From assembly GCA_016342755.1 (NCBI GenBank), contig JAEINS010000014.1:1-64000 (forward strand): a DNA stretch of 64,000 bases. Direction: 5' to 3'. The stretch comes from Melioribacteraceae bacterium. Its GTDB lineage: Bacteria > Bacteroidota > Ignavibacteria > Ignavibacteriales > Melioribacteraceae. Both the position numbers and the translations under genes were made by a program. Positions 46,774-56,880 of the stretch are shown in pieces (position 1 is the first letter of the stretch; each line of letters opens with the position of its first letter). Under the pieces are notes generated by a model. It ran no database searches. It worked only from the letters and a program-made list of their open reading frames with translations, and had not been told where the DNA came from.

Positions 46774-47379
46774 TTATTTATGGCGCTCTGATAAGTTTTT
46801 AACAATTTCTGAAAAATCGATTTCTTTTTCAGCAAGTAAAACAAATAAATGAAAGATCAGATCAGACGTCTCATTTATTATCTCTTCCCTATCATTGTTT
46901 TTCGCAGCTATAACAGTTTCTACCGCTTCCTCACCTACTTTTTGTATTATACGGTTTTCACCTCGTTTAAACAGACTTGTAGTGTACGAGTTTTCTGGCA
47001 AAGAAATTTTTCTTTCTTTTATAAGATTGAATAATTTATTTAAGAAAGAAAGGTCTGAATATTTATCAATTCCAAAACATGAATATCTATCGAGATGACA
47101 TGTATCTCCAACCGGATTGGCATTTATTAAAAGCGTATCATTGTCACAGTCAATTTTAACATCAACTACATTTAGAAAATTTCCGCTTGTTTCGCCTTTT
47201 GTCCAGAGTCTGTTTTTTGTTCTGCTAAAAAACGTAACTCTTTTTTCGTCCAGAGTTTTCTTAACAGCTTCTTCATTCATATAACCAAGCATTAATACCT
47301 GGTTTGTTGAATTATCAATTATTATAGCCGGTACTAATCCGTCTTGTTTTTCGAAATCTATCACTTTAACATCAATCAT
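46774..47379 (-). CDS. hisIE: Bifunctional phosphoribosyl-AMP cyclohydrolase / phosphoribosyl-ATP pyrophosphatase
   Basis: Steps 2 and 3 of histidine synthesis in one protein of 201 residues. The HisI part (1-about 105) shows MLGYMNEEAVKKT, FSRTKNRLWTKGETSGN, DCDNDTLLI and the metal-binding GDTCHLDRYSCF. The HisE part has IIQKVGEEAVETVIAAK and ETSDLIFHLFVLL. It is last in the his operon and overlaps hisF by 4 bases. Confidence 0.97.
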   Translation of the reverse strand: MIDVKVIDFEKQDGLVPAIIIDNSTNQVLMLGYMNEEAVKKTLDEKRVTFFSRTKNRLWTKGETSGNFLNVVDVKIDCDNDTLLINANPVGDTCHLDRYSCFGIDKYSDLSFLNKLFNLIKERKISLPENSYTTSLFKRGENRIIQKVGEEAVETVIAAKNNDREEIINETSDLIFHLFVLLAEKEIDFSEIVKNLSERHK

Positions 47380-48131
47380 AATCTTACATTAATTCCTTTA
47401 TTATTCAAATATTCTTTTAATTCGTTAATGGTCAATTCATTATAATGAAATAAACTTGCGGCTAAACATGCATCAACATTGGCATTATGAAAAGCATCAT
47501 AGAAATCATCCATTGTACCGGCACCTCCAGAAGCTATTACCGGGATAGAAACCATATCTGTTAACTTTGACAAAAACTCTAAATCAAAACCAGATTTTGT
47601 ACCGTCTTTATCCATCGATGTTAACAGTATTTCACCGGCTCCAAGTTCTTCCGCCTTTTTACACCAGCTAAATCCCTCAAGCTCTGTTTCTTCTGAACCG
47701 CCTTTTATAAATATTTTAAATTCATTTGAAACTCTTTTAACATCAATTGCCGCAACAATTGCCTGACTTCCAAATTGTTTTGATGCATTTGTTATTATTT
47801 CCGGGTTCTTAACAATCGAGGTATTTAACGATACTTTATCTGCACCAGATCTTAAAAGTGCTTCTATATCTTTTAATTCAGAGATTCCACCGCCAACAGT
47901 AAATGGAATTCTTATAACTTCCGCTACCTTTTCAACTAATTCTAATAAAGTTTTTCTTTTTTCAATTGAAGCAGTAATATCTAAAAACACTAATTCATCC
48001 GCACCTTCATGATAATACCTTTCCGCTAATTCAATAGCAGAGCCAGCATCACGCAGATTAACAAAATTAGTACCTTTTACAACTCGTCCTTCTTTAACAT
48101 CCAGACACGGAATAATTCTTTTACTTACCAA
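47376..48131 (-). CDS. hisF: Imidazole glycerol phosphate synthase subunit HisF
   Basis: Cyclase half of the synthase, a TIM barrel that uses ammonia from HisH. The 251 residues start SKRIIPCLDVKEGRVVKG, with the catalytic Asp in CLDV near 11 and the second in SMDKDGTKSGFD. IPVIASGGAG binds the phosphate. It overlaps hisA by 11 bases and hisIE by 4. Confidence 0.97.
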   Translation of the reverse strand: MVSKRIIPCLDVKEGRVVKGTNFVNLRDAGSAIELAERYYHEGADELVFLDITASIEKRKTLLELVEKVAEVIRIPFTVGGGISELKDIEALLRSGADKVSLNTSIVKNPEIITNASKQFGSQAIVAAIDVKRVSNEFKIFIKGGSEETELEGFSWCKKAEELGAGEILLTSMDKDGTKSGFDLEFLSKLTDMVSIPVIASGGAGTMDDFYDAFHNANVDACLAASLFHYNELTINELKEYLNNKGINVRL

Positions 48132-48840
48132 TTTTAATTAGCTCCTCTAAATTAATTCTATTCTCGTATATCGCTTTACCCACAATAACACCATAATAAT
48201 TTTCTTCATTAGCTTTTTTAACATCAGCAATATTACTTATGCCGCCAGAAACTATAAAGTTTTTATTCGGGAATTTTAATTGAAGATCTTTATATAGGTT
48301 AAAACTTGGACCCTGTAACATTCCGTCTTTTGCTATATCTGTAACTAAATATGTTTCTAGATCAAGTGATGAACAAAACTCAATATGTTCACTAATTGAT
48401 CTTCCAGAATCTTCAGTCCAGCCCTTAACAAATACGTTTTCATTATTTATATCAGCTGCAACTATAAACTTATCGGCACCAAACTCTGTAACCATTTTAG
48501 AAAATAATTCAGGCTCCTTTATTGATAGAGAACCAACAATAATCTTATCAACTCCAATAGATATAAGCTTCTCAGCATTTTCTAAATTTCTTACACCGCC
48601 GCCAAATTCAATTTTAAGATTAGTGTTTTTTTTAATTTCCTTAATACTCTCAATTATATTAATTTCTCCATTCTTTGATCCTAACAGATCAACTATATGA
48701 AGCCACTTAAAACCATGTGTATCGTATTTTACTGCCTGATCAATGGCAGAATTATTATAGACTGTTACATTATTATAATTACCTTTCTCCAGGCGTACAA
48801 CTTTATTCTCAAGTATATCTATTGCTGGTAATACAATCAT
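48121..48840 (-). CDS. hisA: ProFAR isomerase HisA
   Basis: TIM-barrel isomerase that opens the ribose ring of ProFAR. The 239 residues show the catalytic Asp in LPAIDILENKVVRLEKGN near 8, the phosphate-binding FGGGVRN and FIVSGGIS, and VTDIAKDGMLQGP with the second acid. The gene abuts hisH and overlaps hisF by 11 bases. Confidence 0.96.
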   Translation of the reverse strand: MIVLPAIDILENKVVRLEKGNYNNVTVYNNSAIDQAVKYDTHGFKWLHIVDLLGSKNGEINIIESIKEIKKNTNLKIEFGGGVRNLENAEKLISIGVDKIIVGSLSIKEPELFSKMVTEFGADKFIVAADINNENVFVKGWTEDSGRSISEHIEFCSSLDLETYLVTDIAKDGMLQGPSFNLYKDLQLKFPNKNFIVSGGISNIADVKKANEENYYGVIVGKAIYENRINLEELIKIGK

Positions 48841-49428
48841 CTAACATCTCTCAATAAAATTTTTTAAAAGTTTAATGCCAACAACTCCGGATTTTTCCGG
48901 ATGAAATTGCACACCATAAAAATTATCTTTTTCAATTGATGCAGCAAATTCAATGTCATGCAAGGTAGTTCCGGTAGTATGTTCACTTTTAGGGACGTAA
49001 TATGAGTTAGCAAAGTAGAACTGTTCGTTATTATCAATATCTAAAAACAATTTACTCTCTTTAATTATGTCAACTTTATTCCATCCCATATGCGGCACAT
49101 TTACATTCTTCTTATTAAATAGCTCTGTACTTTCCGGGAAAATACCTAAACACGCTACATCACCTTCTTTGGATTTCTCGCATAACATTTGCATGCCTAA
49201 ACAAATGCCCAGCAAAGGTTTTTTAATGATTCTTAGAAGATTAAAAAGATTTGCAAAATGAAGTTGTTTAACTGCATAAGTAGCTTCACCAACTCCCGGG
49301 AAAATTATCTTATCCGCACTGGTTATATCAAGTTCTCTTTTGGTAATTTTATATTCAACATTAAGTTCGTTTAATGCATTGGCTACTGAAGCGGTATTTC
49401 CAGCTCCATAATCAATTAATGCAATCAT
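48841..49428 (-). CDS. hisH: Imidazole glycerol phosphate synthase subunit HisH
   Basis: Glutaminase half of the synthase, class I amidotransferase. The 195 residues include DYGAGNTASVANAL, FPGVGEATYA, the catalytic cysteine in LLGICLGMQML near 77, and the His/Glu pair in VQFHPEKSG. It provides ammonia to HisF. Its start overlaps hisB by 4 bases. Confidence 0.97.
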   Translation of the reverse strand: MIALIDYGAGNTASVANALNELNVEYKITKRELDITSADKIIFPGVGEATYAVKQLHFANLFNLLRIIKKPLLGICLGMQMLCEKSKEGDVACLGIFPESTELFNKKNVNVPHMGWNKVDIIKESKLFLDIDNNEQFYFANSYYVPKSEHTTGTTLHDIEFAASIEKDNFYGVQFHPEKSGVVGIKLLKNFIERC

Positions 49429-50270
49429 AATAATCCTTTTGTGGTTGGTAATACTCCGTTATTCCTTTCATCCATTCTACATGCTTCATTTAATGACTTT
49501 GCAAACACTTTGAATAAAGCTTCAATTTTATGATGATCGTTTTTACCCTTTGCACGAAGGTATAAATTAGCGCCCATACCAAATGCGATTCCTCTAAAAA
49601 ACTCTTCGGTCATTTCTGTGGGGAAATCGCCAACCTTCTCCCGACTGAAATTACATTTGAAATTTAGAAAGCTTCTGCCGCTTAAATCAATAGAACATTT
49701 TGCAACAGTTTCATCCATTGGAATACAAAAGCCATATCTCTGAATTCCTCTTTTATCTCCGATAGCTTCTTTAACTGCTTCTCCTAAAGTGATCCCGGCA
49801 TCTTCAATTGTATGGTGTTCATCAACATGTAAATCGCCGTCAACTTTTAAAGTTAAATTTAGATTCGCGTGTTTAGATATCTGCTCTAACATATGATCAA
49901 AGAATCCGATTCCTGTGCTAATCTCAGATTCCCCTTTACCATCGATGTCTAAAGCTACATCTATTTTAGTTTCTTTTGTATTTCTGCTTTTCTTTGAGCT
50001 TCTTTTTATCTTAAGATTGTCTGCAGCTTCCTTAAGATTTAAAAAATCATCCGCTTTAATCTTAATTAAAGTCTCAATATTTGAATACTCACTGATTTCT
50101 ATATCTTCATTTTTCAGCAATTTCAAAACACTAATATCAATAACAGATAAATCTTTAGTGTAAAACTGATCAGACATTTTTTTCAATTGAATAAGACCAT
50201 CGACTAGATATTTTGACTTTTCACTATCTAATGAAAAATATTCGGCATCTATACAAAACCCTTTAATCAT
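49425..50270 (-). CDS. hisB: Imidazoleglycerol-phosphate dehydratase HisB with vestigial HAD region
   Basis: 281 residues. From RNTKETKIDV (about 96) onward it is a complete dehydratase, with the metal-binding GIGFFDHMLEQISKHAN, DEHHTIEDAGITLGEA, FRGIAFGMG and NDHHKIEALFKVFAKSL. The first about 90 residues are not found in monofunctional HisB. They start KGFCIDAEYF where the bifunctional enteric enzyme has the FIDRDGT nucleophile motif, and lead into the same RNTKET junction. The HAD phosphatase domain (about 165 residues in Escherichia coli) is shortened and has lost its key residues. Histidinol-phosphate phosphatase activity must come from elsewhere. Overlaps hisC and hisH by 4 bases each. 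Confidence 0.93.
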   Translation of the reverse strand: MIKGFCIDAEYFSLDSEKSKYLVDGLIQLKKMSDQFYTKDLSVIDISVLKLLKNEDIEISEYSNIETLIKIKADDFLNLKEAADNLKIKRSSKKSRNTKETKIDVALDIDGKGESEISTGIGFFDHMLEQISKHANLNLTLKVDGDLHVDEHHTIEDAGITLGEAVKEAIGDKRGIQRYGFCIPMDETVAKCSIDLSGRSFLNFKCNFSREKVGDFPTEMTEEFFRGIAFGMGANLYLRAKGKNDHHKIEALFKVFAKSLNEACRMDERNNGVLPTTKGLL

Positions 50271-51313
50271 AGTACTTTCTCTAATTCTGATAACATAATT
50301 CTATTTTCTATTTCGGTGCCAATAGAAACACGAAGGCAATTTTCTAACTTTTCTTGCGAACTTCTATCACGGATAACAACACCTCTTTCGGCTAATGTTC
50401 TGTGAACTTCAGAAGCATTTTTACATTTAAACAAAATAAAATTAGAGTCACTTTTAAAAACTTTTTGAACCTTTTCTAACTCATTCAATTTCTTAAATAC
50501 AAACTCCCGCTGAGTAATAATTTCATCCACAAATTTTTCTTTTGTTCTGAAATTATTTATTGATTCTACAACAGCTTTTTCCGTTAGTTTATTAATAGTG
50601 TACGGAGCCTTCACTTTTATTATTGTATTAATAACCTCTTTATCCGCCGCACAATAACCGCATCTAATTGCAGCTAATCCCCAAGCCTTAGAAAAAGTTC
50701 TTAACACAATTAAATTTCTTTGATTTAGAATTTCACTAATAACTGAATTCTCTTCATCAAAATCAATGTAAGCTTCATCAACAACAATAATGGCATTAGT
50801 TTTTTCACATAGTTCTAAAATACTTTTAGAACTTAAAGTATTTCCGGTCGGATTATTTGGAGAACACAAAAATACAATCTTCGTATTTTCACCAACTTTA
50901 TTCATAATTGAATCAACCTCTATCTCAAATTGATCAGATAGAAAGGCTTCTCTAACTTCAACATTATTTATATCACAACAAACATGGTACATTCCGTACG
51001 TTGGCTGGACAATGACTGTATTATCAATTCCCGGATTACAAAATATTCTTATTATTAAATCGATCAGTTCATCTGAACCTACGCCAAAAACTAAATTCTC
51101 AATTGGTATGTTTATCAATGCACTTAATTTTCTTCGCATGTTTATTTGCAAAGGATCAGGATATCTGTTCAGTTCAAGATTATAATATTCAAATGTACTA
51201 CCTAGAGTATTTTCATTGGCATCTAGTAAAACCCCCTCTGAATATGAGTCTCTGGCACATGTGTAAGGTTTTAGCCTTTTAATATTATCTCTAATTAAAT
51301 TTTCAATTTTCAT
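50267..51313 (-). CDS. hisC: Histidinol-phosphate aminotransferase
   Basis: PLP enzyme of fold type I. The 348 residues include LDANENTLGS, NRYPDP, GVGSDELIDLIIR, SPNNPTGN, VVDEAYIDF and the PLP lysine in RTFSKAWGLAAIRCGY near 210. It overlaps hisD by 11 bases and hisB by 4. Confidence 0.97.
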   Translation of the reverse strand: MKIENLIRDNIKRLKPYTCARDSYSEGVLLDANENTLGSTFEYYNLELNRYPDPLQINMRRKLSALINIPIENLVFGVGSDELIDLIIRIFCNPGIDNTVIVQPTYGMYHVCCDINNVEVREAFLSDQFEIEVDSIMNKVGENTKIVFLCSPNNPTGNTLSSKSILELCEKTNAIIVVDEAYIDFDEENSVISEILNQRNLIVLRTFSKAWGLAAIRCGYCAADKEVINTIIKVKAPYTINKLTEKAVVESINNFRTKEKFVDEIITQREFVFKKLNELEKVQKVFKSDSNFILFKCKNASEVHRTLAERGVVIRDRSSQEKLENCLRVSIGTEIENRIMLSELEKVL

Positions 51314-52592
51314 TTTCTAATCTCACTTTAACTGCATTTGCATGCGCGTCTAATTTTTCTACTTCAGCTAGTGTAATAACTGTATCAGCAATGTTCTTCA
51401 ATCCATCTTTACTTAACTTTTGAAAAGTAATCGCCTTCATAAAAGAATCAACTGAAACACCGCTGTATGACTTGGCATATCCGTATGTAGGCAGAGAATG
51501 GTTAGTGCCGGAAGCATAATCACCAACTGATTCTGGCGAAAATTCACCAACAAAAACAGAACCGGCATTTATAACTTTTTCTGAATATGATTCGGCATTA
51601 TTAATATTTAGAATTAAATGTTCCGGCGCGTATTTATTACTCAGCTCAAAAGCATCATCCAGTGAATTAACCTTTAGTATAAATGAGGATTTTAAAGATT
51701 CTGTAATGAAACTATTTCTTTCTAATTTATCAGATTGTTCCTCAACTTCTTTGCTAACATTAGCAGCTAAAACATCTGATGTTGTTAAAAGAATTACTTG
51801 TGAATCTACTCCGTGTTCTGCCTGTGACAAAAGATCCGAAGCAATGAATCTGGCATTTGCAGTTTCATCGGCTATAACCAGAACTTCACTTGGACCCGCC
51901 GGCATATCAATCGCACAACCGTCCGGATCAATACTTATAATTGACTTAGCACAAGTTACATATTGATTACCAGGTCCAAATATTTTATCAACTTTTTCAA
52001 TTTTAGCAGTACCGTAAGACATAAGCCCAACTGCCTGAGCGCCACCTACTTTATATATTTCACTTATACCGCAAAGATTTGCAGCATACAAAACTTCATT
52101 TGAAATGACTTTCCCAACCGGGGAACATAATACAACTCTTTTACAACCGGCAATTTTTGCGGGTATACCTAACATTAAAACTGTTGATGGAAGTACGGCA
52201 GTTCCACCCGGAATATAAAGCCCTACATTTTCAATAGCACGAAATTCTCTTGAGCATTTAACTCCCGGCATTGTTTCAATAGAAAATGATTTGGGAATTT
52301 CTTTTTCGTGAAATTTATAAATATTCTGATAAGCAAGTTCCAAAGCATTCTTAGACGATTTTGAAATACTTTTAAGTGAATTATCAATCTCTATTTTGGA
52401 GACTAAAATATCATCGGTTTCAAGAGCATCAAATTTCTTTGCGTATTTGATAACTGAATCTAATCCTCCAAGCTTAATATCGTTAAGAATTGGATTAACA
52501 ATTCCGCTTACTTTTATATTATCAATCGCTTGTCTTAGAAATAGTTTCTTCAATTCATCTTTCGATAAATCATTTAAATTAAATAGTTTCAT
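51303..52592 (-). CDS. hisD: Histidinol dehydrogenase
   Basis: Zinc enzyme that oxidises histidinol to histidine in two NAD steps. The 429 residues show YIPGGTAVLPSTVLM, GAQAVGLMSYGT, DMPAGPSEVLVIAD, LLSQAEHGVDSQ (zinc Gln/His), and GDYASGTNHSLPTYG with the catalytic region before the C-terminal helices. Lies 2 bases after hisG. Confidence 0.97.
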   Translation of the reverse strand: MKLFNLNDLSKDELKKLFLRQAIDNIKVSGIVNPILNDIKLGGLDSVIKYAKKFDALETDDILVSKIEIDNSLKSISKSSKNALELAYQNIYKFHEKEIPKSFSIETMPGVKCSREFRAIENVGLYIPGGTAVLPSTVLMLGIPAKIAGCKRVVLCSPVGKVISNEVLYAANLCGISEIYKVGGAQAVGLMSYGTAKIEKVDKIFGPGNQYVTCAKSIISIDPDGCAIDMPAGPSEVLVIADETANARFIASDLLSQAEHGVDSQVILLTTSDVLAANVSKEVEEQSDKLERNSFITESLKSSFILKVNSLDDAFELSNKYAPEHLILNINNAESYSEKVINAGSVFVGEFSPESVGDYASGTNHSLPTYGYAKSYSGVSVDSFMKAITFQKLSKDGLKNIADTVITLAEVEKLDAHANAVKVRLENEN

Positions 52593-52594
52593 AA

Positions 52595-53464
52595 TTACAC
52601 AATCATATTATCTATTGGCAGCAACAAAATCCCCGAAGCTCCATTTTCCTTAAGTAAAGTATTTATATCCCAAAAAGTATCATTTGGAATTACCGCATGA
52701 ATAGCAACTAAATTATCATCAGCTAAAGGTAATACTGTTGGACTTTTTAAGGAAGGAATAATTTCCAGAATAGTTTTTAGGTTGTTTTTAGGAATATTCA
52801 TCATTAAATATTTCGATTTTTTTGCCGTCAATGCAGAATCAATTCTACTGCAAAGTTCGTCAAGTATATTTGATTTTACAACATCATCACTAAGTTTTTT
52901 TGATTTAATTAATACCGCTTCAGAATTAAAAATGGGAAATGATTTTTTAAGTTTATTCATTTTCAAAGTATTTCCGGTTGAAACTATATCACAAATAAGA
53001 TCCGCAATACCAAGTGAAGGAGCAATTTCAACAGAACCACTAAGCTGAATTATATCTGCCTTTACATTATTTTCATTCAAGAAATTACCAAGTATCTTTG
53101 GATATGAAGTTGCAATAATTTTCCCGTTTATTTCATCAACAGCATCAAGAGTTTTCCCTTCAGGAAAAGCCATCATTAACTTACATTTGCCAAAGCCTAG
53201 TTTTTTTACAACCTCAACATCTTTCTCTTTTTCGTAAATTACATTTTCGCCAACAATACCAATATCAGCAACTCCATCCTGAACATATTCAGGAATATCA
53301 TCATCCCGTAAAAAAAGTAAATCCAAATTGAAGTTTTTAGTTGTTACTAAAAGTCTTTCAGCATAGTTCTCAATGTCAATTCCACATGATCTTAATAGAT
53401 TTAAAGATTTCTCTGATAATCTTCCTTTTTTTTGTACAGCAAGTTTTAAATTATTTTTTTCCAT
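52595..53464 (-). CDS. hisG: ATP phosphoribosyltransferase, long form
   Basis: First enzyme of the pathway, feedback-inhibited by histidine. The 289 residues are the long HisG with a C-terminal ACT-like regulatory domain (about 215-289, ending NGASGILLLPIDNMI), so no HisZ is needed. KLAVQKKGRLSEKSLNLL begins the catalytic domain, and DLICDIVSTGNTLKMNKL binds PRPP. First gene of the operon, 19 bases after the attenuator. Confidence 0.97.
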   Translation of the reverse strand: MEKNNLKLAVQKKGRLSEKSLNLLRSCGIDIENYAERLLVTTKNFNLDLLFLRDDDIPEYVQDGVADIGIVGENVIYEKEKDVEVVKKLGFGKCKLMMAFPEGKTLDAVDEINGKIIATSYPKILGNFLNENNVKADIIQLSGSVEIAPSLGIADLICDIVSTGNTLKMNKLKKSFPIFNSEAVLIKSKKLSDDVVKSNILDELCSRIDSALTAKKSKYLMMNIPKNNLKTILEIIPSLKSPTVLPLADDNLVAIHAVIPNDTFWDINTLLKENGASGILLLPIDNMIV

Positions 53465-53483: not shown

Positions 53484-53513
53484 AAAAAACCCCAGCAGTT
53501 GCCGGGGTTTTTT
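53484..53513 (-). terminator. his operon attenuator (intrinsic terminator in the leader)
   Basis: On the minus strand CCCCGGC, loop AACT, GCTGGGG (one G-T wobble), with A-tract before and TTTTTT after. It lies between the leader peptide stop and hisG. The leader segment at 53534-53543, just after the leader stop codon, contains GCTGG, which can pair with the left arm CCGGC and would block the terminator. A second leader segment at 53586-53597 (AGCAGTTCCCGC) is complementary to this second segment (CCGC/GCGG) and to the AACTGCT in the terminator. Confidence 0.8.
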
Positions 53514-53545
53514 ATAAAAAATTATATACTATTCCAGCGCCGCAT

Positions 53546-53608
53546 CTAAGGGATTTTATGATGAAAATGATGATGTACTCTATTTGCGGGAACTGCTATG
53601 TTATACAT
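53546..53608 (-). CDS. hisL: his operon leader peptide HisL
   Basis: A 20-residue open frame with five histidines in six positions (HHHFHH at 12-17), ending TAG. It lies between a good Bacteroidota-type promoter and an intrinsic terminator in front of hisG. By analogy with enteric his leaders, ribosome stalling at the His codons when charged His-tRNA is low would leave 53534-53543 free to pair with the terminator's left arm and allow read-through. A ribosome that reaches the stop would cover that segment and let the terminator form. The peptide sequence is directly visible; the mechanism is inferred. Confidence 0.85.
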   Translation of the reverse strand: MYNIAVPANRVHHHFHHKIP

Positions 53609-53635
53609 TTTGCGTTAAACCTAAATTGTTGAAGT

Positions 53636-53666
53636 CAAAAATAAATATTTAATTGTAAATATCAAA
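53636..53666 (-). promoter_or_regulatory. his operon promoter, Bacteroidota type
   Basis: On the minus strand, TTTG (53663-53666), 19 bases, TATTTTTG (53636-53643), an exact match to TTTG-N19-TAnnTTTG. It would start transcription about 20 bases before the leader peptide ATG. Confidence 0.65.
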
Positions 53667-53685: not shown

Positions 53686-56600
53686 TTATAATAACTTTTT
53701 TAGTTCTAGTTTTTTAGCCGGATCTGTAACTGCAGTAATTTTGGCTGCATAACTATCATTATTTTCAATATCTTCGTCTGTAACATAGTAAATATCTAAT
53801 AATCCATCTGTCTTATAACCAGTTCTTAAATAGTTCATTTCACTTAAACAGAGACTCCAACCCTGAAACCAGTTTTCCAAAAGACCCATTTTAACACTCT
53901 TATCAACATGAACAATTAAATCAATATCACTTTTAGCAGTGGCACTGGCATTTTTTGTACTTCCAAAAACGTAAACTCCTTTCACCCCATATTTACGGCC
54001 GTCAAGTTCAGATGCCATCTTTTCAACCATTCCAACTCGCCATTTCCACTGATCATAATCATTTGCATCACTATTTATATTCTGGTAAATACTTATTTCT
54101 CTTCCATTGCCGCTACTATCTGTAGGAGGTAAAAGTAATCCAACAGCCTCATCTAGATCTGCGTTCAAGAGTATCTTAAGTATATTTCCGTTAGTAGCCG
54201 AAGGCACATCTATAACTTTAATTATATTTTCTAAGTCTTTGTATTCAGGTAATAATTCAGTGAAAATATTTTCAGTTACATCAAAAAATCTTTCATTAAA
54301 GAAAATCCCTTCGTCATCGGGATATAATGGAAGATATTGGATTGAAGCTTCTACCAAATCTTGAAAAAAATGAGTACCAAATGATAGATCAGGGATATAG
54401 TTCCCTTTTTTCTTAGCAATTTCTACAAGCATTGCTGTGTTATTTATATCGGAATAAGTAACACTAACACCAAGTTTTATATCGCCACGACTGCCCCATC
54501 TACCAGGCCCCATCAAAATAAATTGTCTTTTAGGAAGAATTTTATTTAGTCTGCCAACCGCTCGTCCAACACGCAGCATAGTTTCTTTCTCAGGAATTTC
54601 TGCATATGCTTGCGGCTCAACGTAAACTATATTGGTTATATCAGACATACGACCGTTGGAAATATATCTATTAGCTGTAAATAACATCTGATCTTCTGGA
54701 ATATCCTTTGGAATAGGATCCGAAAGATTTACATCAAAATAACTTTGCGGTCTTGATTGGAGCAAGTATAAATCAGTACCATCATGTGCAAATTCTAAAT
54801 CTACAGGTGTCTTCATTTTTTCCTGCAGAGTATTAATGATACTATATATTTTTTGAATGAAATTTGATTTATTGATAAGACCATCAAATGTTACAATAAA
54901 TTCTCCACTTTCAAAATCAATATCATAACCCATAGGCTGCCTAATAATATTACCTTCCATAATGGAAATCATTTTTTCTACCATGGGGTATTCTTCTCCA
55001 TATTTTTTAAGGAGATCGTCCATTTCAATAGTTTCAAAATCATTTGTTTCCAGATTAATTACATCAATCTTTCTAGGAGAATATCTATACTGCTCATTCA
55101 CCGAAACATTTACTCTTAAGTTTGGTTGACCCAAAGCTACCAATATTGGGTAATCATCGCTTAATCTATCAACAGCTCTAGTACCTAAGCCCGGTACAAT
55201 TCTTACAAGTCCGTCTTCACGCTTTATTCTTGACGACCATCTAAATTCATTATTACTGAATGCAACACCAGCAAATGCCGGACAGAAATAAGGGCCGATT
55301 TTTGACCCAACAACTTCTTGAATCATGATTCCCATTTCTTCATGGAAATCAATTAAACCACGTTCAGCTCTATATTCTATAGGGTCTGGTCCAAACGTAG
55401 AAGCATATACCTCGGCAATTGCATCAGTTAAAGCGTGAAGTCTTGTTTCTTTTGGACCCTGGTTTGCCAGAAATAAACTTTTATATTTACCAGAAAAAGC
55501 AGCTCCCATCTGATCTTCCATTAAACTTGAGCTTCTTACAATTAATGGTGTATCACCAAAATCATCTAATGCAACAGACAAACCTTTAACAAGATCGGGT
55601 GGAAATTGTGAGTTTTTGAAAAGCTGTATTATATGCGGATATTCTAAACGTACCTCATCAATATCTTTATATTTCTGCTCAATTGTTTCTTCCAGATCAT
55701 TAAAATGCATAAAATGCATTAATGCATCTGAAGCAACATACCATGTTTTAGGAGTTTTGAAATCCTTAAGTAATTCACAATCTTCAGAGCTTTTTCGAAG
55801 AATATGTGAAGCTAGAAATAATCCGGCTGATTTACCACCAAGTTTACCATGACTTCCGGGAGGGAATATCATATTATCAATAAGGTGATAGAAATCTGTA
55901 AGTTTCACATAGTCTTTTGCTATCGATATATATTCCAACTGCTCAGTAAAAAACCTTCTTAGCAATGTTACTCTAAGACCCTTAACTGTGGCTGCCGAAA
56001 GTTTAAATTTTTCTGGTGCCAAATGATAATACTTTCTAATAGCATCACTAATATCAGATAATGAAGTATCCAGGCTTTCAACAGCTTTTACTAAGCCGCT
56101 TGCCTTTTCTTCCTTAACCCATTTTTGAATCTTGGCAAGAATCTGTTCATCCTTAATATTTTCATCCGCAAGATTTAAAATTGCATTTATATATTCGTCA
56201 TAGGTATTAATCTTCCTTCGAATCATAGGTTTATTTTCATCAATAGGTATTTTACTGTCGCCAACCTTTAATTCAATTGTTTGCAAGGCTAAAAGCTTAT
56301 CGGCACCCTCAACCTCTTTCCAGCAAAGATGATGAAGCAATTTCCTTAATATTGAGGCAAATAAATTTGGGTCTGTTTTGCGGAACATATCAAGTACAAT
56401 CTTCCATTCGCCTCTATGATATAGTTCATTGCCACGTTTAACACTTTGCAGTTCTTCAAATACAGATTGAAGATTTCGATGATGAATAAAATGACTAATT
56501 CTATCTCCGACAGTTTTAATGAGCTTAATCTCCTCATCTAAAAACGGATTTGCATCACTTCCAGTTACACCCTTTTTATAATAGACACTTAGTTTGCCAA

Positions 56601-56880
56601 TAGTTTTATCATCTTCATGAAGTTTTACAGTATAATGCCAGGGCGTTTCAATAAAATTTGGAGTAGTATAAACTTTGGTTTCTATAATTAGTTTTACTTC
56701 GCAAAAATTTGAGTACCTTAATCCGCTTGGCAAAGTATTAATTATAAAATTAAAAGCATTATCATCAGAAAAGTCTTCTCTGTTTAAACATTCTTCAATA
56801 GAATAAAGGCAACTCAATTCTTTGGTTTTATCTTGTAATTCGTTTATAATGCTTTCAAAAGGTTTATCAGAAGGTGTCAT
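53686..56880 (-). CDS. GAF-like / PPDK_N / nucleotidyltransferase fusion protein
   Basis: 1064 residues. An N-terminal GAF-like part (about 1-140) precedes a helical region. A PEP/pyruvate-binding ATP-grasp (PPDK_N) domain lies at about 345-725, with GKLGGKSAGLFLA, PLIVRSSSLMEDQMGAAFSGKY and DLYLLQSRPQ. The phosphohistidine and PEP-utilising domains of PEP synthase are absent. The C-terminus has a minimal nucleotidyltransferase motif, GVYVFGSTKNASATAKSDID near 965-984, with a third acid in GLLDIYYV. It may phosphorylate or nucleotidylate a partner, but no substrate is evident. Starts after the gdhA terminator. Confidence 0.82.
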   Translation of the reverse strand: MTPSDKPFESIINELQDKTKELSCLYSIEECLNREDFSDDNAFNFIINTLPSGLRYSNFCEVKLIIETKVYTTPNFIETPWHYTVKLHEDDKTIGKLSVYYKKGVTGSDANPFLDEEIKLIKTVGDRISHFIHHRNLQSVFEELQSVKRGNELYHRGEWKIVLDMFRKTDPNLFASILRKLLHHLCWKEVEGADKLLALQTIELKVGDSKIPIDENKPMIRRKINTYDEYINAILNLADENIKDEQILAKIQKWVKEEKASGLVKAVESLDTSLSDISDAIRKYYHLAPEKFKLSAATVKGLRVTLLRRFFTEQLEYISIAKDYVKLTDFYHLIDNMIFPPGSHGKLGGKSAGLFLASHILRKSSEDCELLKDFKTPKTWYVASDALMHFMHFNDLEETIEQKYKDIDEVRLEYPHIIQLFKNSQFPPDLVKGLSVALDDFGDTPLIVRSSSLMEDQMGAAFSGKYKSLFLANQGPKETRLHALTDAIAEVYASTFGPDPIEYRAERGLIDFHEEMGIMIQEVVGSKIGPYFCPAFAGVAFSNNEFRWSSRIKREDGLVRIVPGLGTRAVDRLSDDYPILVALGQPNLRVNVSVNEQYRYSPRKIDVINLETNDFETIEMDDLLKKYGEEYPMVEKMISIMEGNIIRQPMGYDIDFESGEFIVTFDGLINKSNFIQKIYSIINTLQEKMKTPVDLEFAHDGTDLYLLQSRPQSYFDVNLSDPIPKDIPEDQMLFTANRYISNGRMSDITNIVYVEPQAYAEIPEKETMLRVGRAVGRLNKILPKRQFILMGPGRWGSRGDIKLGVSVTYSDINNTAMLVEIAKKKGNYIPDLSFGTHFFQDLVEASIQYLPLYPDDEGIFFNERFFDVTENIFTELLPEYKDLENIIKVIDVPSATNGNILKILLNADLDEAVGLLLPPTDSSGNGREISIYQNINSDANDYDQWKWRVGMVEKMASELDGRKYGVKGVYVFGSTKNASATAKSDIDLIVHVDKSVKMGLLENWFQGWSLCLSEMNYLRTGYKTDGLLDIYYVTDEDIENNDSYAAKITAVTDPAKKLELKKLL

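Follow-up and report, generated by a model that had tools for sequence, protein, structure and literature searches.

A probable ribosome-mediated transcription attenuator of the his operon with covarying alternative helices across an order of Ignavibacteriota

One of the known systems nearest to the element described here is the his leader of Escherichia coli and Salmonella (hisL; RF00514), which it resembles in having a run of His codons in a short frame and alternative antiterminator and terminator structures, all placed before hisG. By description only, it is also like the his leaders of Firmicutes, a different phylum: the accessible text of PMC9413887 reports leader-peptide histidine systems in three Firmicutes lineages, with attenuators made of short frames holding three to five His codons, a terminator, and an antiterminator. 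As of 2010, according to the accessible part of one paper (PMC2965389), demonstrated leader-peptide systems were confined to Proteobacteria and Actinobacteria. Nearer by, in the same branch in a wide sense, the transcriptome of Flavobacterium psychrophilum gave strong hints that amino-acid operons are attenuated by leader peptides, together with a structured element 5′ of hisG, without an Rfam match, that is common to this species and other Flavobacteriaceae; the accessible text gives no sequence or His run for hisG (PMC9723704). Short frames reminiscent of leader peptides have been described for Bacteroides thetaiotaomicron in a paper whose accessible text does not contain the word “histidine” (PMC7366714), the word “leader” is absent from the accessible text of a study of his genes in the superphylum (PMC8305728), and the Bacteroid-trp RNA (RF01692) is a candidate cis-regulatory RNA of Bacteroidetes (PMC2864571). 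The mechanism is known, and published work hints that the wider branch uses it; our literature searches turned up no his leader peptide described for Ignavibacteriota, where older papers on attenuators may mention one.

In the window (the whole stretch of DNA analyzed here, 64,000 nucleotides long), a leader with the form of an attenuator lies on the minus strand between the end of a PPDK-like gene (53686) and the start of hisG (53464). Read along that strand from 53666 to 53484, a promoter, a leader frame, a capture arm, and an intrinsic terminator follow one another in that order. A preliminary description of this stretch had named a Bacteroidota-type promoter and a 20-residue frame with HHHFHH ahead of hisG, and both were found in place. 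The promoter (53636 to 53666, minus strand; TTTG-N19-TATTTTTG) agrees with the Bacteroidota-type consensus in its two boxes, TTTG at 53666-53663 and TATTTTTG at 53643-53636, separated by a 19-nt spacer. The same type is enriched before the leaders of relatives: the pattern TTG-N17-23-TAnnTTTG occurs within 80 nt upstream of 23 of the 47 leaders in the order set, which includes two named loci, and of 16 of 44 leaders from other families, versus about 0.4% of shuffles. The leader frame itself, MYNIAVPANRVHHHFHHKIP (53546 to 53608, minus strand), encodes 20 amino acids and ends in TAG, and its putative control codons, HHHFHH (53558 to 53575), form a run for the very amino acid of the operon behind it. 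That operon is complete as judged by family matches (hisG-D-C-B-H-A-F-IE); hisG is its first gene (52595 to 53464, minus strand; TIGR00070, PF01634, and PF08029), followed in sequence by hisD, hisC, hisB, hisH, hisA, hisF, and hisIE (46774 to 52592, minus strand). Judged by the named relatives of its HisG, the genome belongs in or near Melioribacteraceae (Ignavibacteriota).

Two neighboring proteins are worth recording in their own right. HisB (49425-50270, minus strand) has a stretch of about 90 to 115 residues at its N terminus, ahead of the IGPD domain (residues 119 to 260). Pfam found no phosphatase domain in the protein, whose best alignment was with the later portion of the bifunctional HisB model, at a score under the cutoff. 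The PPDK-like gene (53686-56880, minus strand) encodes a protein of 1,064 residues in which a PPDK ATP-binding domain is combined with a nucleotidyltransferase-like domain at the C terminus. By visual inspection, a similar gene ends upstream of the his leader at another locus (L006).

Within the window, 4 or more His in 8 codons occur in 4 of the frames of at most 60 amino acids, and of these the hisG leader alone is followed within 110 nt by a hairpin before a T-run. Likewise, the 4.7-Mb genome has 5 sites matching CAYCAYCAYNNNCAYCAY (a run of the HHHxHH type), of which only the hisG leader is a short frame ahead of a his gene with a terminator. For comparison among genomes, we assembled 121 hisG upstream regions, consisting of 42 relatives, the 2 named loci, and 77 more genomes of the phylum, whose families are denoted below by the codes of the program (f1, f27, etc.). 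Of 58 related genomes, 42 yielded a hisG, and a short His-rich frame stood upstream of it in 41 of the 42 (all except G054); in the order, a short frame with a minimum of 3 His per 8 codons preceded hisG in 45 of 46 cases. Across the 121 regions, frames that reached this minimum were present in 96 and frames with at least 4 His in 85, versus 3 and 0 of 121 on the opposite strand and 30 and 3 of 605 dinucleotide shuffles. By these counts, the His-rich frame before hisG is not a product of chance. Nor were the absences scattered: the 25 regions of the 121 with fewer than 3 His in 8 codons comprised all 9 from f21 and all those sampled from f8, f10, f16, f19, f37, and f38, along with both from f4, those from f23 and f28, 2 of 3 from f35, 1 of 2 from f26, and G054. 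Families f8, f10, f16, f19, f21, f37, and f38 carry a distant HisG (about 30% identical). The spread of such control in the phylum, which the preliminary description had called less clear, is partly answered by these counts: it takes in most sampled families with a HisG like that of the window and leaves aside the sampled families with the distant form.

The leader and the first gene are separated by an intrinsic terminator with a 13-bp stem, an AACU loop, and a U-run (53484 to 53513, minus strand), whose stem-loop folds at approximately −19 kcal/mol. A simple terminator scan missed this hairpin, probably by counting as stem the U-run, which pairs with an A-run; the terminator expected there from the preliminary description has the support of folding and of a covarying stem in relatives. 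The shuffle z-score of the whole fold was modest (−2.06). With a terminator defined as a structure of −7 kcal/mol or better downstream of the last His codon, one was found in 73 of 96 His leaders and in 44 of 45 within the order; the 23 leaders without one came from f27 (14 of 14), f17 (5 of 5), f32 (3 of 6), and f3 (1 of 11). In alignment A1, which has 45 rows, the terminator stem was paired in 94.3% of 315 cells, and its covariation score exceeded all 500 shuffles and lay far above that of slid partners. The PPDK-like gene ends about 170 nt ahead of the hairpin, and read-through from it would also end there, so the hairpin might be a mere terminator of that upstream gene and the His run without a role. 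We regard this as very improbable, given that a promoter and a leader frame intervene, that hairpin and His frame precede hisG in 44 of 45 leaders of the order regardless of the upstream gene, and that an arm behind the leader frame covaries with the hairpin.

This arm, GCUGG (arm 2; 53534 to 53538, minus strand), is the putative 5′ arm of an antiterminator. It begins seven nt past the leader stop and pairs with CCGGC (53501 to 53505, minus strand), which serves both as the antiterminator 3′ arm and as part of the left arm of the terminator. That a segment after the leader stop could pair with the terminator's left arm had been proposed beforehand, and folding the RNA from the stop to the left arm alone indeed gave this helix, at −8.3 kcal/mol. 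It comprises 5 bp, one of them G-U, and is short in the window: the duplex amounts to −9.1 kcal/mol versus a mean of −13.7 kcal/mol in relatives. In the 73 leaders with a terminator, the predicted pairing of the segment between His run and terminator with its own terminator arm had a mean of −13.65 kcal/mol and that with swapped arms −9.25 kcal/mol, and the observed mean was reached in 0 of 5,000 permutations, both over the whole set and within families. The test retained two misassigned rows of the order, G038 with a wrong T-run and G018 with a wrong frame, as well as G064 of f20, which looked wrong. The letters of the arms vary by family while the pairing is kept; for example, in f1 GCGCCGG pairs with CCGGCGC, in f25 CUCAAGCG pairs with CGUUUGAG, and in f20 GGUAGGCC pairs with GGCUUAC. 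In A1 (45 rows), the 5-pair antiterminator core was paired in 95% of 222 cells, with a covariation score that none of 500 shuffles reached and that slid partners fell far short of, and the extension of the helix beyond the core was longer than in all 10,000 shuffles. The next pair outward, counted over the 43 rows ungapped in the core (2 dropped), was U-A in 13, C-G in 9, A-U in 9, and of some other type in 2; in 10 rows these positions were unpaired. Permutation and covariation tests of this kind remove kinship only in part. On a quick HisG tree of 40 rows, the outward pair switched pairing type at least 10 times when unpaired rows were dropped; a stricter test of independent pairs on the HisG tree yielded just 3 pairs on supported branches, too few to be of use. 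Loss of the His run and the competing arms in relatives would have spoken against an attenuator; both persist throughout the order, and several further families of the phylum have them too, spelled in other letters.

The spacing of these parts is what a translating ribosome would need. Over 65 leaders (G038, G018, and G064 left out), arm 2 started 24 to 40 nt past the first His codon of the run in the order and 20 to 39 nt past it in other families, and it lay within 15 nt of the stop codon in 42 of 42 leaders of the order and 23 of 23 from other families. Part of this regularity arises because the leaders are so short. In the window, arm 2 starts 37 nt past the first His codon, 22 nt past the last, and 10 nt past the stop's first base. 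It falls entirely behind the stop codon, as had been claimed, and this places it at the far end of the range, most relatives having an arm 2 that overlaps the last leader codons. Considering the size of the ribosome footprint, the positions in the 65 leaders fit an arm that is left free by a ribosome stalled on a His codon and covered by one at the stop. Pairing between the His codons and arm 2, which would block the antiterminator if nothing were translated, was slightly stronger than in controls (−7.7 kcal/mol, versus −6.1 reversed and −5.5 shuffled, in 42 leaders).

From this anatomy, its conservation, the covarying helices, and the spacing, we infer stalling, termination, and read-through in the cell. 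RNA polymerase would initiate just downstream of 53636, and a ribosome would follow it through the 20-codon leader. With sufficient charged His-tRNA, the ribosome would reach the stop and cover the GCUGG behind it, leaving the CCCCGGC arm free to form the terminator, and most transcripts would stop at about 53484. When charged His-tRNA is scarce, the ribosome would stall in the HHHFHH codons, which precede the arm by 22 to 37 nt; the free GCUGG could then capture CCGGC during synthesis, no terminator would form, and the operon would be transcribed. When the right arm is included in the fold, the terminator wins (−19 to −23 kcal/mol), and since it does so at equilibrium against a short antiterminator, the switch would have to rely on the order of synthesis. 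The element is in our judgment highly likely to be a ribosome-mediated transcription attenuator of the his operon; very probably, the His-rich frame and the two competing hairpins serve to shut off the operon under ample histidine.

The helices might act instead on translation, by masking and unmasking the region of the hisG start, or the leader might feed ribosomes to hisG by reinitiation. Translation-level attenuators exist (PMC9413887, accessible text), and a short distance from leader to hisG favors reinitiation (PMC4833913, accessible text), whereas here 81 nt separate the leader stop from the hisG start, the U-run after the hairpin is uninterrupted and invariant in A1, and the stem excludes the hisG start. 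Such control in place of attenuation seems very improbable for the window, but it might contribute alongside, above all in f27. In this family, the His-rich frame was present in all 14 leaders of the phylum set and in all 30 loci examined (from 57 genomes with hisG; e.g., L064, L066, L067, L069, and L140-L165), many with GTG starts, and no evident intrinsic terminator was found in either group. The tract from the stop to the hisG match, 87 to 121 nt long with means of 25% C and 9% G, folds weakly (−0.04 kcal/mol per nt in 14 leaders versus −0.24 in f1). Among other 5′ noncoding stretches of two f27 genomes (80 and 71), 1 to 9 and 2 to 4, depending on how the tract was cut, were as rich in C over G, 2 to 12 and 2 to 5 were as unstructured, and at most 1 and 2 were both; the C-rich, unstructured tract is unusual, not unique. 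Leaders of f27 also have a small hairpin whose loop contains the stop codon (GUGC/GCAC in many), with a predicted pairing of −8.1 kcal/mol for its own partner versus −6.4 for swapped partners (0 of 5,000). In 14 of the 30 loci, a TAnnTTTG box lies within 30 nt upstream and ends 4 to 5 nt before the start codon, such that the mRNA may begin at the start codon itself. Family f27 may have a Rho-dependent output, an effect on hisG translation, or a simple loss of the switch. In f17 (e.g., L059 and L060), no strong terminator was found in the His leaders, and this is perhaps a third layout; by eye, the last codons and stop of the leader seem to fall within a hairpin, CATCGCC GATA GGCGAT.

Comparison with described RNA families sets the element apart in several respects. 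The RF00514 His_leader model aligned end to end with the leader of the window at 31.9 bits, under the gathering threshold of 49 (E = 0.0016 for a 351-base search); as one of 45 matches, most of them due to chance, it was not counted as proof. No Rfam family reached its gathering score for the window's leader or over the leaders of 20 related loci. A T-box or other riboswitch sensing tRNA or histidine directly is extremely unlikely here: T-boxes do regulate his genes in Firmicutes and Actinobacteria (PMC9413887, accessible text), but neither the window nor the leaders of the 20 loci matched a T-box model of Rfam at its gathering score, and the RNA upstream of the terminator is mostly the His-rich frame. 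Unlike RF00514, the system in the window has a Bacteroidota-type promoter, and it is simpler: its capture arm sits at the stop or immediately past it, and its His codons pair only weakly with arm 2. From the element before hisG in Flavobacteriaceae it differs in belonging to Ignavibacteriota and in the letters of its arms; a Salegentibacter locus (L007) carries a His leader, capture arm, and terminator.

The same genome may hold a second leader of this kind. Upstream of a trpE-like gene, a leader MYKNTGRNIEIRKTTWWWHTTIDKV followed by a stop, a hairpin, and a U-run (L139:1274-1351, on G000:C43) is a candidate trp attenuator by its sequence; no clear antiterminator was found in it. The presence of MYKNTGRNIEIRKTTWWWHTTIDKV, with its WWW and hairpin, before trpE in this genome was counted in favor of the his attenuator. 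RF01692, which we take to be a trp leader and which is by name for another amino acid than the his leader, had no match in the window and none beside this trpE. A leuA-like gene had no leader, an apparent coding frame extending almost to its start.

Together, the conservation of its predicted parts shows his attenuation to be the rule in this order, a well-supported extension to Ignavibacteriota, and the order-wide and cross-family evidence is new as far as our searches reach. Since His_leader scores the window below threshold, a family could be made from the present alignment, and A1 could seed it in Rfam. We tentatively suggest, as a possibility with less than even chances, that His leaders are an old control shared by Bacteroidota and Ignavibacteriota whose output has been rebuilt, mostly as a terminator with a covarying arm and in f27 via Rho; in f27 the mRNA would then probably often begin at the start codon, and the C-rich, G-poor, unstructured tract would be the landing site for Rho. 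Families with and without the terminator offer a test of how such a switch evolves. For these organisms, attenuation of the his operon implies a coupling of transcription and translation close enough for classic attenuation with promoters of the Bacteroidota type.
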